From NCBI GenBank assembly GCA_004369045.1, contig ML213528.1, positions 169,662 to 233,661 of the forward strand: DNA of 64,000 nucleotides, written 5' to 3'. This DNA comes from Heliocybe sulcata (taxonomy: Eukaryota; Basidiomycota; Agaricomycetes; Gloeophyllales; Gloeophyllaceae). This document shows positions 12,947-38,821 of the stretch, in pieces. Under the pieces are notes generated by a model. The model did no database searches. It was not told where the DNA came from and saw only the letters and a list, made by a program, of their open reading frames with translations. The stretch's first letter is position 1. Every line of letters starts with the position of its first letter. The position numbers and the translations under genes are program-made.

Positions 12947-13568
12947 GGCCGGCGTCGTCGTCGTCGCCGTCGATAGAGAAGAGAGGAACAGAGGAGGGAG
13001 TCAGAGGCCTAGGGAGGAGATTAATGCAGAGTGCCTATAAAACTGCAAAAGTGACTCGGAAGCATGGCCGAATATAACCGATGGTCGAGGTCTTGTGATC
13101 GCCCCACTACCAGACTTCGTCACGCACCGGAGCTGACTGCGGGACTTCGCGTGACAGCAGTGAAGTCTCTACGACTTCGGCAACCAATTTTTAATTTCTT
13201 GACGAGCGAGTACAAATACCAAGTACTAGCTTTATCCTGTTCCATATTTATTAAGTAACTCAGTCAAATACCGGCTTTAACTTGAGTCTTTAGCAGGAGA
13301 ATTCGGAGACGATTGAGGGACAACACTGCAGGGGGAAATGAAGCGGGGAAGAAGATAATGGCCTAAAAGAATAAAACTGGGCTTGAGATACCCAAACAAC
13401 ATGCAGATATTACAAATATGCAGCTTGGTACCACCAGATACAACAGAAAATTAAGAGAGACGCAATGTGAGCTGGCGTGTGAAGACATGTCAGGAAGGGA
13501 AATATCGAAGCCATATTGGACTAAAAATCACGTGACTGGTCATGGCACGTGAGTAATCCGAGTGGTTA
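12947..13568. other. Upstream region of ILV2
   Basis: About 620 bp lie between the ILV2 start and the left end of the transposon relic. I see no gene. It becomes AT-rich beyond about 13.15 kb. Confidence 0.45.
13052..13057 (+). promoter_or_regulatory. Possible Gcn4/CPC1-type half site (TGACTC) upstream of ILV2
   Basis: TGACTC sits about 105 bp upstream of the most distal ILV2 ATG. Amino-acid biosynthesis genes of fungi are commonly controlled through TGASTCA elements bound by Gcn4/CPC1. The final A is missing here (TGACTCG), so this is only a candidate. Confidence 0.3.
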
Positions 13569-13965
13569 CCACAGCGGGAGTTGCACCATTTCGGACGTTA
13601 CAATATGTTGGTCAAAATGGAAATCAAATACATTTAATTTAATAATTGATTCCCTAAGTTGCAAAAGTTATTATTCTTGAAACCCTTCATGGCTCCCTGT
13701 ATATATCATCTATTGTGATTCCTTTTGCAAGACAGTATAGCAGAGATAAAAATGCTATGCATAATGCTGGTAATATATCTTCCTTTGCAATCAATTTAGA
13801 GTGTGACAAAATTTGGGATTTTGGGGGTTCCCTCAATGTTGCTCAATAGATATTTTTAAATAGATCATAATTAAAAAAAATATTACAAGATACATAATAT
13901 CAGCTGCCAACATTGTCCGAAATGGTTATGAAAATGATATATTGGGCAACCTTGCAAAAGATATT

Positions 13966-14098
13966 GGCCCAGTAGCCACCCAGTACACGCCCAATAGCCG
14001 CCCAGTAGATGCCCAATAGCCGCCCAGTACACGCCCAGTAGCTGCCCAGTAGCCACCCAGTAGATGCATGATAGCCCAGTAGACAACCAGTAGACACC
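13966..14098. repeat. Minisatellite of GCCCAGTAGCC-like units
   Basis: About a dozen degenerate copies of an 11-base unit (GCCCAGTAGCC, GCCCAATAGCC, GCCCAGTAGAT, ACCCAGTACAC) run head to tail inside the larger transposon. Translated, they give meaningless Trp/Leu/Gly repeats. Confidence 0.8.
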
Positions 14099-14239
14099 TG
14101 ATAAGGGTTCATGCACATGGGAGGGCACATAAGAGTTCCTACTGTAAAGACTGACTGTTTTATTCACTACCCTGTGGTGTAGCTGCACCACACCTGGCAG
14201 GAACCTGCACACAATATTGCCGGAGTGCAGCTCATACAC

Positions 14240-14898
14240 AGGACCCGGGTGACTACTATGTATGTCTGTCGGGAAAAAAGCCTCAAATCGGCCTCAAAAA
14301 TGCGACGATTCAGGCCTGAAAAATGCTATTTCCGACAGACATGTCACAATGTCACAGAGATGTGTCACGCTTTTACAGATGCGTACATACGTACATAGCA
14401 ACCTCCATCTACCGTAGCGTTAACCGCCTCATCTGTGCCTCCAACTAGCAGTACTATCCAGGAAGAAAACACAGAAATCCTCATCACCTGCAGCATCTGC
14501 TTCATTCTGTAATTGTGCTCTGTATGCATTCAAAACCGTGCCGTTGATCTTAGTTTCGGTGTTGGGTAGGAGGCATTGAAGGTCACTTCTTAGAAGCTGA
14601 ATGTTCCGAATCTGGCGAACATGAGGATCAAGCTCAGGCTGTGGGTCCATGATGGGAAGACGGCAAAAGAAAACGAGGGTCTGAGCATGCATAGCAATAT
14701 TTATTGGCCGGGATGTGGGCCGAAATGGCTGACTCAGCCACCCAAGCGGCCTCAAAAATGCTATATTCCGACAGACATTAGGCTGCGGGAGCCGGCGGAG
14801 GGCCTCAAAAATGCTATTTCCGACAGACATACAGCCAATTTTTTGCCCTCAAAAATGCAAAAACCCCGACAGACATATATAGTAGTCACCCGGGTCCT
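14240..14898. mobile_element. hAT-like MITE inserted in the Tc1/mariner-like element
   Basis: This 659-bp element begins AGGACCCGGGTGACTACTAT and ends with its inverse, ATAGTAGTCACCCGGGTCCT. It is flanked by an exact 8-bp target duplication TCATACAC at 14232-14239 and 14899-14906. An 8-bp duplication with short inverted repeats points to the hAT superfamily. Just inside both ends, a sub-terminal block (TGTCTGTCGG plus CATTTTTGAGGCC) is repeated several times in both orientations, near 14263, 14310-14342, 14750-14780, 14803-14830 and 14848-14872. Such sub-terminal repeats are usual transposase-binding sites. An open frame on the minus strand (14429-14830) is not recognisable as a transposase. 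The near-perfect duplication and repeats suggest a fairly recent insertion. Confidence 0.8.
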
Positions 14899-14967
14899 TC
14901 ATACACCCCACAATATGTACCGGGGCATTTATCGGGTGGTGGCTGTGCCGGTACCGGGCAGCCTTTG

Positions 14968-15013
14968 CCCGGTTATTGCCCAGTGATCGGGTCAGCAATG
15001 GGCAATAACCGGG
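14968..15013. repeat. Perfect 15-bp inverted repeat (hairpin) inside the relic
   Basis: CCCGGTTATTGCCCA at 14968-14982 is followed, after a 16-base loop, by its exact inverse at 14999-15013. It belongs to the right arm of the larger element, or marks yet another tiny insertion; it is not near a gene end. Confidence 0.7.
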
Positions 15014-33788: not shown

Positions 33789-34005
33789 AGTACTGGTTGA
33801 TCATGAGTAGCTTGTCTCGGACGCGTTTGTGGCTATATGCGGGCACGTGGCTGACCGCGCCTAATTACTTATAGAAAGCTGTACCGACATGCACTCTTCG
33901 CGTTTCTTTTGACGCTGACCAGAGGCTGACGGTATAATACACTTGGTTCACCAATTGCTGTGCATCGCACCTTTCCCCTAGATATCATTCTGCAAGACCG
34001 CGACA

Positions 34006-35908
34006 ATGGAGGAAACAACTGGGTGCGAGTCCAAAGACTTCAAACCCATTGTGCCCGTATTTTTGCAGAAGCTTTACGAGTGCGTGCTAGGCCTCCTGTC
34101 GATAATGCCCGTTGTTCTGATCATCTTCCACGAATGCAGGATCGTCAATAACCCGCGAAATAAGGGCCTCATAGAATGGTCTCCAAGAGGAGACTCCTTC
34201 TACGGTGCGTCCATTAGTCTTAGTTAGGACTCGAGGGAAAGTTCATAGCATTGAACGGGTATGATCGCCAGTCCTTGACCAGGATCGCTTGTCCCGCGAA
34301 GTGCTCGGTCACTGGTTCAAGCACGAGAAGTTTACGTCGTTCATACGCCAACTAAACATGTACGGCTTCCGCAAAGTGCAAAACCTGCAGCAACACGTCG
34401 CGAAGAGTGACGCCAATTCGAGACGTTGCCACTTTGAGCATCCACACTTCATCCGTGACCGACCGGACCTCTTGGGTCATATACAGCGCAAGAAGCCTGC
34501 CAGCCCTGCGCTCGGCAGCAAGTCTCCCGTAGACCTAAGTCCCAGATCGCCGCAGGCTTCTATGGCTGCAGATCAGGCTGAGCACAACACTGACGCGGCG
34601 GTCCTTCTCAGTGGAGCCGAAGATAGACTTTCCGGCAGGCTCGAAGACGAGTTGGCTCGGACGCTGGACCCGGTGATCTCCGAGTTCCAGCAGTCCCTAT
34701 CACATCTCCAGCAGGAGCTCACTGAGGTGAAGGATAGCCAGAGCAAGCTTATGAACATGGTAGCACCTCTCCTTCAGTCTGTCTACGAGAGACTGGGCCG
34801 CTCAAAGCTACCGCTGCCTTGGCTCGATGGCGGTGGTATGGCTATCCATGCATCTGGATTCTCGGACTCTGATATCGAAACCTACTATGGCCAAGGATTT
34901 GGAGAGGAAAAGTGGGACATGCATGGAGATGCCTACAACATGCCCATGTTTGAGGGCAGTACTCTGAGTCCAAGGACAGATGGATTGTACCACCCTGGAG
35001 AAGGGACCATCAAGATGGAGTCAGGAAGTGGCCAGGACAGTATTTTCCAGTGGGACCATGCGATCTCTGCTTGTGGATATGCTTATCCCACACCCTCAAT
35101 GGATCATCTCTCTCCTGATGGGCAACAGAGCACCAGCACAGTAAGACTTGACTTGGGGCAAGGTTCTGGGGCTCTTGGTGTCCAACTTGCAGGATTCAAG
35201 GCTAACACAGAAAATCCTGTGAAGGATTACATACCCAGCCTAATATCAAACAATACTGGATCACCTGGAGAGGAAAGAATCAGCTGTGGCAATTCCTATG
35301 CATCCTTCAGACCACTGGGGAGACTGGTGGATGATGCTGGTCTTTCTCCTTCCCTCTACAGAAGGTCAAGTCCTATATCAAGCAGCAGAAGGAATCATCC
35401 ATACTCAAATGCAAGGAGGCCATCTACTTTAACCTCTGCAGGCTCACCAATGAGCCCTGCAGTGGAACCAATGAATCCCAATACCAGCAGTCCAGAGGTC
35501 ACATATAATGGAAGTCAGGGCCACTGGATTATGAGCCCATCAGGCATGGTGCCTGACCACAGCCATGGAGAAAGCAAATGTGTACCCACTGATATAAGTG
35601 GGTATACAAACAGCATGTCAGGAGCCAAAATGCAGTCATCACCTGTTCCCTTTGCTCTTAGCCATTGCCTGATGGGCCCCACTCTGGAGGGTGTTTGCAA
35701 TGTACAGAGCAGTCCAAGTCTTGCCGAGTTACACGGTGGACTCACTGGTACATCCACACTTCTACAAGCCATGCCAAAATTGGCATCAGTACCATGGTCA
35801 ACCCCCTCAGATATAAATGATCAATCAAGATCTATGCTGCCTTCTGAGCAAGTGGCTGCTCCATGCCCTGAGATGGACACTCAATACGTGCTGCCACTGA
35901 TACCATAG
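34006..35908 (+). CDS. Heat-shock-factor-type transcription factor
   Basis: Three exons: 34006-34079, 34140-34204 and 34272-35908. Translation gives FKPIVPVFLQKLYEIVNNPRNKGLIEWSPRGDSFYVLDQDRLSREVLGHWFKHEKFTSFIRQLNMYGFRKV, a complete HSF DNA-binding domain at residues about 10-105. The recognition helix is SFIRQLNMYGFRKV. A heptad-rich region at about residues 165-215 (LDPVISEFQQSLSHLQQELTEVKDSQSKLMNMV) should trimerise. The remaining 330 residues are Ser/Pro/Gly-rich and disordered, with no recognised motif. The protein is nuclear and binds inverted nGAAn elements. The DBD with adjacent coiled coil fits Hsf1 better than Skn7, which would carry a receiver domain. From 34878 on, the coding DNA loses almost all CpG dinucleotides. 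Confidence 0.92.
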
Positions 35909-36208
35909 TTATCCAAGGCATGAGACAAGCTTGCAGTAGAAGAATTTACTGATAGTCTCTGAGTGGTTCAGTTGCTATGTAGGCCTTGCATCTATGCTGA
36001 ACATTTCCAACCACTATCAGTACTGAGCTCTTTCACACTCCATCTACTTCTCCAGAACCTCCTCCCTTGGTTACTTGAGACTTGTCCATGTAGCCTCCTA
36101 CTTCTATGTAATACTACTTAAACAGATGCATGCTCATAATAGAATCCTCTTGCTGTGATTGAAGTGGGATACACCCATAGTACAAAAAGTGTTAATGCTA
36201 ACAGGAGA
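34878..36208. other. CpG-depleted block covering the 3' half of the HSF gene
   Basis: My count finds only four CpG (near 35061, 35725, 35734, 35887) in about 1.33 kb. At roughly 48% GC some 70 would be expected. Flanking DNA on both sides has two to five per 60-base line. TpG and CpA look enriched. The HSF frame remains open through it. Confidence 0.85.
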
Positions 36209-36247
36209 CGCTACATTCCTAGATGTCCTATGCTCGAAGGCTCTAAT
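35909..36247. other. Convergent 3' region between HSF gene and HEL2
   Basis: About 340 bp without a gene. Most of it belongs to the CpG-depleted block. Confidence 0.5.
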
Positions 36248-38821
36248 TTAGGTGGGGAATGTACCCAAAGTAAATAGTGTCTGCTTCTGTTTGCCCTTAC
36301 CCTTCTTCTTGCCACCCCCACCAACCTCATTCCTCAACTCTGACGGCGGAGCATCATGCTCATCAACAGCATTGCCTCCAGCATCTGGTACACCATTCCC
36401 GGTCTGCGATCCCGCACTCCCGCTTCCCCACGCACTCGGTGCTGACTGAACAGGCTTCCCCAGTATATTCTTCAACGACTGGTTTCCGCCTACGTGAGGC
36501 CTAACATAGCTCCCCCCACCGGAACTCGGCAGTTCAGGGAACGCCGCCTTCGATAACGCAGGCGGCGGTCGCCCATTGGTCTTCTTAGCAGCAGGACGGG
36601 ACACCGAAGAAGGCGTCGGGAAGTGTGACGGACCGGACGAAGCAGCCGTAGCCGCCCAGGGCGTGCTCCGCTGAGGCTGTCGGTATCCGGGGACGGGTGC
36701 TGGTGCTGGTGCTCGCGCCTGAGGGTTCAAAGGCGGGAAGCGGTCCTGTGGGCGAGAAGGTCCAGTTGCACCAGGGACAGACGAGGAGGCTGCAGCCTGC
36801 GCGACGCGATCCCAGACATGTCGCGACGAGGATGCAGACGACCGAGTAGCAGTCGAGTGTTTCGCATTCAGGACCCGCCCGGCCGCGATCCCCGAGTACT
36901 CTGTACCTTGTGCCGTGGGTACGAGGTCAGGGAAGCTCCGACGTTGCTGCACAGGATGTGAACTAATCAATACCAAACTCTTGTCCACAGCTATGAAGAG
37001 ACGCACCTCGATCTTGAATCCGTTCCACGCAGCAAGTAAATCTCGTTTCTTCTCCTCTTCGTCCAAGAGGTCAACGAGCGCATTGACAATACTTGCGGTG
37101 TTGTCGAGGTCGCGATCCAGGACATTCCATATAGTCGAAATGAGATCCCTCGCGGCGGACTCGGAGGCACGGTAGGACCTGATAGCGGCCTTGACCCCAG
37201 GAACGATGTTTGCATTGTTCGGCGCGACCGACATCAGGCGAGCAACAAATGCAGAATGTTTCCTATTGGGAAGTTGAGATAGAGCGGCACGAGATGAAAA
37301 ACGTCCACCTACTCCGCTACTTCCGGATCGACATCTGCACGCACTGGCGACGGCGATGGGCGCCGACTCGGCTCCGGACTAACATTCGACGCCCCATTCG
37401 CATTGGCCTCCGTAGACAAATGCGCGCCGAAGCCTTCGCGCCGCCGCCCACCACCAGGTCGTGACGGTCCAGCCGGTGGAGGCGGCTCGCGGTCCCGTTC
37501 ACGGTCACCCCTGCGTCCACCTCTGCGGCCACCGCCACCGCCACCTCCGCTATCGAGCTGAAATTCTGCTTGGACGCGGAGGGCGTCTTTCTTGTCCCGA
37601 GACGACATGTCTGCCCCATGCTCTTCGACCATATGCGCTTTGAGGTCCATGGCTGAGCCGAAGACCACGAACTTGCGGGCTTGGCATTGAGAGTTCGGGC
37701 ATGGATGGTGTGCATTGTTAAAATGTCGTTCCTACTCGCGTTTAGATTGATAGCATGCCATTAAGATCCCAAACTCACTAATGCTTCGTAATTCTGGAAG
37801 CTGGACATGGATTACTCTATGTATAAAGGAGTGATGCATACAATCACACTCACTATTGGTCTCGAACCTCGTTCCGCTTGCAGATAAAACACTCTTCGTG
37901 TCGCTCTCGCATGTGGGAGTATAGTTCGTCGTCGCTGAAGAAGCATTCACGGCAGAAGCCGCACAGCGGGTGCACGCCGCCTTCAATCTGCTCTTTGGGA
38001 GGCGGAGCTTTGCGAGAGCGCTGAGCCACGGACGGTAAATGCCATGGCAACTGCCATGGGGCGTACAAGGCCTGTTCATGTGCAAAGACTTTCTTGTGAC
38101 GGATGCACATATCGCTTCGGAGCAGTGAGTCGTGAGATAGACTTACAGTACTGAGTACAGGTGCTCACCACATTACTTTACCATGCATTTCCCGCACATG
38201 GAGCTTGAGATCGCCCCACCCCGCCACCGCTATATAGTCGCATTTCGGGTCAGGGCAATTGAAGCGGAGTAGAATCAGTGTTTCTTCCATCATTTCTTGG
38301 CTCTCGAAGAAGATGGCTAGCTTAGTGTCCTTGTACGATATCTCTTCCGGAGAGTAGGAGGAGAAGAGCGCATCGGGCGAAGTAGTGAATATAACCGTGT
38401 TTTGTGGTTCCTTGACCGCCTTATCAGGTCTATATTCACCAACGACCGAGGCTACACGCACCTTGCAAAATGTACAGTCCAGTTTCTTATACAACGCACG
38501 CAAACGCAATGCACAGACATGGCAGGTCCTATGGTTACATTCCGATACGGACCAATACTTGACCGGCTCAGCGCAGATCCAGCAGACAGAGCCGTCCTCT
38601 GCATCCGCAGTCTGTTCAGCGTCTTGCCCGCCTCCTTCTGCAGCCTCCGGCGTCTTATCCTCCACTTTATTTTCCTCCGAGGGCCGCGGTTGTCCTCTCC
38701 CCATTCCACCGTTCATATTCTTCGGTGTTCCCCGCGCGGGGCGCCGTGCCCTATTGACCCGCCTAGCTCTGGGCGGCGGGCTCTGCGATTGGGTCTGGGT
38801 GGTGGTATTCTGCGTAGACAT
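36248..38821 (-). CDS. HEL2: RING/C2H2 ubiquitin ligase Hel2 (ZNF598 orthologue)
   Basis: ATG complementary to 38819-38821. After a basic disordered start comes the RING SVCWICAEPVKYWSVSECNHRTCHVCALRLRALYKKLDCTFCK. Then FNCPDPKCDYIAVAGWGDLKLHVREMHG, the HPLCGFCRECFFSDDELYSHMRERHEECFIC block, and HHPCPNSQCQARKFVVFGSAMDLKAHMVEEHG, which are its C2H2-like fingers. A Gly/Arg-rich linker leads to HSAFVARLMSVAPNNANIVPGVKAAIRSYRASESAARDLISTIWNVLD. A Pro/Ser-rich tail ends KQKQTLFTLGTFPT with stop at 36248-36250. Hel2/ZNF598 senses collided ribosomes and ubiquitinates the 40S subunit, starting ribosome quality control. All family parts are present over about 700 residues. Confidence 0.93.

Follow-up and report, generated by a model that had tools for sequence, protein, structure and literature searches.

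How could the 3' half of a heat shock factor (HSF) gene lose almost all of its CpG dinucleotides and keep its reading frame open? The question is raised by positions 34878-36208 of the Heliocybe sulcata window, that is, of the whole stretch of 64,000 nucleotides that was analysed. These positions hold 4 CpG where 74.4 are expected from base composition (observed/expected ratio, o/e, 0.05; GC 0.47), and the o/e across the whole window is 0.97. Among 2000 base shuffles of the same segment the lowest CpG count was 53, so that the near-total loss reported in the preliminary description was borne out.

The gene lies on the forward strand and its parts were delineated from open reading frames (ORFs) and domain searches. 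A scan for ATG codons gave a candidate start at 34006, about 870 bases upstream of the left edge of the block and within the ORF at 33982-34227, and the likely 5' exon or exons of the predicted gene model occupy 34006..34264. The main ORF is open from 34265 to a stop codon at 35906-35908. Its CpG-normal part (34265..34877; 44 CpG, 48.5 expected) encodes the remainder of the HSF DNA-binding domain, followed by a coiled-coil-like stretch that was judged by eye and gave only sub-cut-off Pfam matches. Residues 3-76 of this ORF match the HSF-type DNA-binding domain PF00447 (E=2e-20), which makes the product a member of the HSF family, and chains labelled heat shock factor protein 1, 2 and 4 were matched among solved structures. 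The CpG-depleted coding part, with the stop, extends over 34878..35908 and comprises 342 Ser/Pro/Gly-rich codons (4 CpG, 62 expected; TG 1.60, CA 1.48), for which searches with Pfam and NCBIfam returned no domain match. It is continued by a CpG-free 3' flank at 35909..36205 (0 CpG, 12.4 expected) and by a right edge zone at 36206..36344, which enters the 3' end of a convergent minus-strand ORF ending at 36248. Neither a direct repeat in the block nor a bacterial-type promoter or terminator pattern at its 3' side was found.

In a two-edge fit the best left edge was 34878 (range within 3 log units, 34682-34912), where the change is abrupt and falls inside the open HSF exon, and the best right edge was 36344 (36310-36400). 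The left boundary proposed in the preliminary description is thus the best-fitting one, while its right boundary has to be shifted: the CpGs at 36209 and 36235 are isolated, and the edge is therefore slightly past 36208. When the 342 residues of the block were re-encoded 5000 times according to the codon usage of the reference ORFs, the mean was 71.7 CpG (sd 6.2, minimum 47). The real count of 4 is far under this minimum, so that amino-acid composition is ruled out as the cause of the depletion; for the upstream part of the ORF, re-encoding predicted 42.1 CpG and 43 are present.

Within the 263 kb examined of the HSF contig (C26), the block is the most extreme CpG-poor stretch. Its gap of 664 bases between CpGs is the longest there, bar one run of N, and the HSF ORF has the lowest o/e (0.44 for the whole ORF) among the 59 long ORFs, defined as those of at least 250 codons; the next value is 0.79 and the median 1.01. 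A further short CpG-poor stretch, AT-richer, was seen at C26:34751-35250, with 5 and 0 CpG in 250-base windows where 11.9 and 9.3 are expected.

The intact frame noted in the preliminary description was confirmed, about 8 stops being expected in the block from its own all-frame stop frequency and 12 being present in each of the other two forward frames. Since CpG-directed transitions create stops solely by changing CGA to TGA, they are mild on reading frames, and an open frame is less surprising than had been held.

Codon contexts disclosed the nature of the loss. Among C/T-ending codons followed by G, C was kept in 3/50 in the block against 2226/4098 (54%) in reference ORFs (p 5e-13), and with A, C or T following, pooled, the choice equalled that of the reference (p 0.93). 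With the choice of C/T-ending codons unaltered outside CpG, neither a general drift to AT nor a relaxation of codon usage can be the main cause. Of the NCG and NCA codons taken together, 1/45 was NCG, compared with 61% in the reference. Across 34878-36208 the roughly 70 CpGs lost are matched by excesses of about 41 TG and about 38 CA. NCA made up 44/101 of the non-NCG codons, a share compatible with the 0.50 predicted by transition (p 0.20) but not with the 0.28 predicted by proportional purging (p 0.0008); the comparison of NNT codons before G, applied to the HSF and DNMT1 genes, gave no separation between the two models. The CpG deficit is therefore balanced by TpG and CpA with other contexts unchanged, apart from a mild additional shift from G to A in G/A-ending codons whose second base is not C (56% G against 68%, p 0.007). 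In the 3' flank, the gain of TpG exceeds that of CpA (1.53 and 1.14, respectively). A loss confined in this manner almost wholly to CpG is the signature of 5-methylcytosine (5mC) deamination. All 12 Arg codons of the block are AGR, an outcome that CpG transitions alone cannot yield and that requires gain from Lys codons, transversion or selection.

Four other HSF loci of the genome (L001, L002, L004 and L005, with L006 overlapping L005) are CpG-normal, hence the HSF gene family as such is no target. Three HSF-domain matches lie on C26 within 145 kb (93855-94232, 203932-204153 and 237679-237909), and the CpG-poor block occurs in the middle one only. Windows of 301 bases on 8 Fungal_trans, 3 Piwi and 1 SRA matches, drawn from the 40, 10 and 2 matches listed, were normal in all 12 cases (o/e 0.79-1.24). 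A depletion of all HSF or transcription-factor genes is ruled out by the normal HSF loci together with the normal Fungal_trans windows.

Matches to PF00145 were found at four loci of the genome, on contigs C1, C3, C17 and C19. By ORF reading and Pfam, those on C1 and C3 are DNMT1-type with RFD matches; that on C17 is DNMT5-type, with DNA_methylase and SNF2 ORFs, and that on C19 we take to be DNMT2-like. CpG methyltransferases are thus encoded in the genome, the CpG specificity of the enzymes being taken from reviews. The C1, C17 and C19 loci are CpG-normal (o/e 0.67-1.26 over 500 bases), and the second DNMT1 gene, on C3 (L031, C3:46000-53000, and L040, C3:38001-46000), shows a loss similar to that of the HSF block, with 500-base o/e of 0-0.37 over C3:46001-49000. 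The depleted stretch of about 3 kb has CpG-normal DNA both upstream and downstream. CpG drops over about 500 bases where the RFD-coding ORF begins; on the 3' side recovery is graded over about 1 kb (0.45, then 0.67) and lies ahead of those exon segments whose counterpart in the alignment is the C-terminal part of the C1 enzyme.

In the aligned exon segments of the C3 gene, AGR accounts for 16/21 Arg codons in the depleted part and for 0/10 in the normal part (p 7e-5). At the 25 positions of the depleted part where the C1 paralogue has a CGN-encoded Arg, the C3 gene has 6 Arg (4 of them AGR), 6 His or Gln (CAN) and 13 other residues; at the 8 such positions of the normal part it has 6 Arg, all CGN, and no His or Gln. 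His and Gln are the products of CpG deamination in Arg codons, so that 6/25 against 0/8 is as deamination predicts, with the proviso that C1 and C3 are distant paralogues and the direction of the Arg change is an inferred one. NCA codons (27/77) are fitted better by purging (p 0.16) than by pure transition (p 0.009). The switch to AGR in this gene shows either that exposure was long and the protein under selection, or that CpG itself was selected against.

A third affected gene, located on C8, encodes an NB-ARC domain (PF00931, E=2.2e-6) and TPR repeats (PF13424, E=7.9e-39). CpG is normal in its 5' part, and the body holds 8 CpG where 115 are expected over C8:299801-301900 (2.1 kb). Copies are present at C8:298001-302300 (L081, L065 and L082) and at C17:632600-635500 (L095), with N within the repeat stretch, and the copy number of two rests on a 300-base DNA query. 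The C17 copy is 81% identical to that on C8 in the best alignment (about 19% divergence) and is likewise CpG-depleted. A position was counted as a YpG/CpR site if the copies share a following G and one or both have T, or share a preceding C and one or both have A. The copies differ by a transition at 12/326 of these sites and at 175/732 of the equivalent sites outside such contexts (p 1e-18); with the alignment cut before the repeats the counts are 8/246 and 134/596. At third codon positions, the T of TpG and the A of CpA differ in 3/99 cases and other sites in 86/221 (p 3e-13). TpG and CpA being nearly invariant at such divergence, CpG must have been kept away after the copies split, which means sustained loss and no single burst before the split. 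On the evidence of this alignment, new CpGs in the pair are removed about as fast as they arise.

For a wider view of the genome, 59 arbitrary round-number positions were sampled, 57 of which were readable. An o/e below 0.5 was found at two (95% interval 0.4-12%, repeats included), namely the C8 NB-ARC/TPR gene and a dispersed repeat on C22. The preliminary description had foreseen the case that such blocks are common and unrelated to methylation; at 2/57 they could be called common only in a weak sense, and both sites fit methylation. The affected gene loci number three (HSF, the C3 DNMT1 gene and the NB-ARC pair), the latter two having come from the methyltransferase search and this small sample. 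The repeat on C22 (L114, C22:200001-200200) is CpG-free and has 33 matches in the genome including itself, several of which are paired in inverted orientation at distances of a few hundred bases. Among eight reverse-transcriptase loci, two of which hold N counted as length, o/e was 0.30 and 0.40 in two and 0.68-1.06 in six, hence transposons are not uniformly depleted. In the window itself, a CpG-poor dispersed repeat with 84 matching pieces was observed at 13000-15000 (o/e about 0.55-0.6 over 13567-15000), together with an apparent nested insertion at about 14239-14898, which is bounded by 34-base inverted repeats and recurs on C19 and C7 outside the element that encloses it here.

Exonisation into the HSF gene of a foreign or transposon-derived CpG-poor segment, as contemplated in the preliminary description, would account for the sharp left edge and for an encoded sequence of low complexity devoid of domain matches. 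It is nonetheless highly improbable: the homology search of 34878-36208 found no other copy in the 31.6-Mb genome, neither as DNA (E up to 10) nor as a protein relative (E up to 1), nor any match in the non-fungal collections of plasmids, GTDB contigs and viral contigs, and its non-CpG C/T-ending codon choice is that of the host. For want of another copy in the genome, an exonised transposon or repeat is ruled out. The single-copy state of the block, as DNA and as protein, bears equally on a RIP-like, CpG-directed burst, given that RIP targets repeated DNA. Such a burst would have struck a former partial duplication of the HSF 3' half and flank, the second copy of which was later lost; the block edges would be the ends of the duplication, and their sharpness is well explained. 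Passages of PMC4352252 report, for transposons of basidiomycetes, a C-to-T bias directed at CpG, and repeated, renewed RIP is possible for the NB-ARC gene, which has two copies, and for DNMT1, which is one of two paralogues. We regard a burst as unlikely, however, for beyond the missing second copy CpG stayed scarce in the NB-ARC pair throughout its divergence, unlike the outcome of one burst, and the C3 DNMT1 depletion is graded at its 3' side; moreover, the same passages state that a RID/Masc1 gene was not found in basidiomycetes, and those of PMC7862722 that RID is seldom present there.

The Arg codons speak for CpG having been selected against directly within part of the gene, for example to stay free of methylation or to meet codon or RNA constraints. 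It would explain the exclusive use of AGR in the HSF block and its prevalence in the depleted part of the C3 DNMT1 gene, where it also encodes 4/6 of the Arg residues conserved with C1 (CGN there), compared with 0/6 in the normal part; the NCA codons of that gene fit purging, and selection would likewise maintain the low CpG of the NB-ARC pair. On the other hand, the HSF depletion runs on through the 3' flank past the stop, the dispersed repeat is CpG-free too, and His or Gln stands opposite some of the CGN-encoded Arg residues of the paralogue in the depleted part of the C3 gene. Selection of this kind is accordingly held to be quite improbable.

The probable origin of the HSF block is CpG methylation that persisted over long times in the bodies of certain genes, with purifying selection acting on the protein. 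The distal part of the gene would have been CpG-methylated in the germ line over a very long time, and its methylated CpGs would have deaminated to TpG, or to CpA via the other strand, until almost all were gone, while selection on the protein would have held the frame open during the decay. The footprint would begin several hundred bases into the gene, downstream of a CpG-normal promoter side and 5' coding part, and extend about 300-440 bases beyond the stop. A spared 5' end and an affected body, with starts deduced from ORFs, are common to the HSF gene, the second DNMT1 gene and the C8 NB-ARC copy. Both DNMT1-type enzymes and DNMT5 would be the likely writers. The methylation and deamination proposed in the preliminary description thereby gain support from the codon contexts, the TpG and CpA excess, the methyltransferase genes and the similar loss in a repeat and two gene loci; from these sequences we infer the presence of 5mC, now or formerly, its writer enzyme and the reason for the choice of these genes. 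More tentatively, the three loci may point to targeted gene-body methylation of a small, evolutionarily stable gene set that includes one of the fungus's own DNMT1 genes and immune-type NB-ARC receptor genes, over an interval that would start some hundreds of bases into each gene and have been inherited for long enough to remove nearly all CpG, possibly with a methyltransferase feedback loop.

The background on fungal methylation used here rests on passages of PMC13297926, PMC7862722, PMC5974365 and PMC4352252. In these, gene-body methylation is given as absent in most fungi (PMC7862722) and as generally negligible (PMC13297926), Uncinocarpus reesii and Metarhizium robertsii being named as having it (PMC7862722). 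Basidiomycetes are credited, in passages of reviews including PMC7862722, with DNMT1-RFD and DNMT5 and a CpG preference, and methylation both within and around genes, correlated negatively with expression, is mentioned for two Pleurotus species. None of the titles and abstract openings listed, a body of work to which subscription literature was largely external, concerned a basidiomycete with gene bodies, or a DNMT1 gene, erased of CpG. The HSF block is notable against the view of fungal gene methylation as little or none. If the methylation reading is true, very old and stable methylation of genes would be legible in a small set whose bodies are stripped of nearly all CpG while under protein constraint; fungi at large could then be searched for such genes from sequence alone, and it would become clear whether a methyltransferase gene is its own target.

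Gene bodies that are CpG-methylated, as in animals and plants, become depleted of CpG while their 5' end stays CpG-normal. The loci described here resemble these in their loss of CpG and gain of TpG and CpA over gene bodies, in the spared 5' end and in the intact frame; they differ in belonging to a fungus, in being apparently few (1/59 long ORFs in 263 kb), in an o/e as low as about 0.05, and in the HSF and DNMT1 genes being affected over part of their length only. With the methylation and deamination footprint on basidiomycete transposons they share the change of CpG to TpG or CpA, the DNMT1-type and DNMT5 enzymes, and the company of a CpG-free dispersed repeat and two depleted reverse-transcriptase loci out of eight; unlike that footprint, the HSF block affects coding DNA that is present once and whose protein is under selection. 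Neurospora RIP prefers CpA. It has in common with the present case C-to-T changes on both strands and sharp edges, whereas here the target is CpG, the HSF block is without a repeat partner, and the loss in the NB-ARC pair was continued and not one-off.
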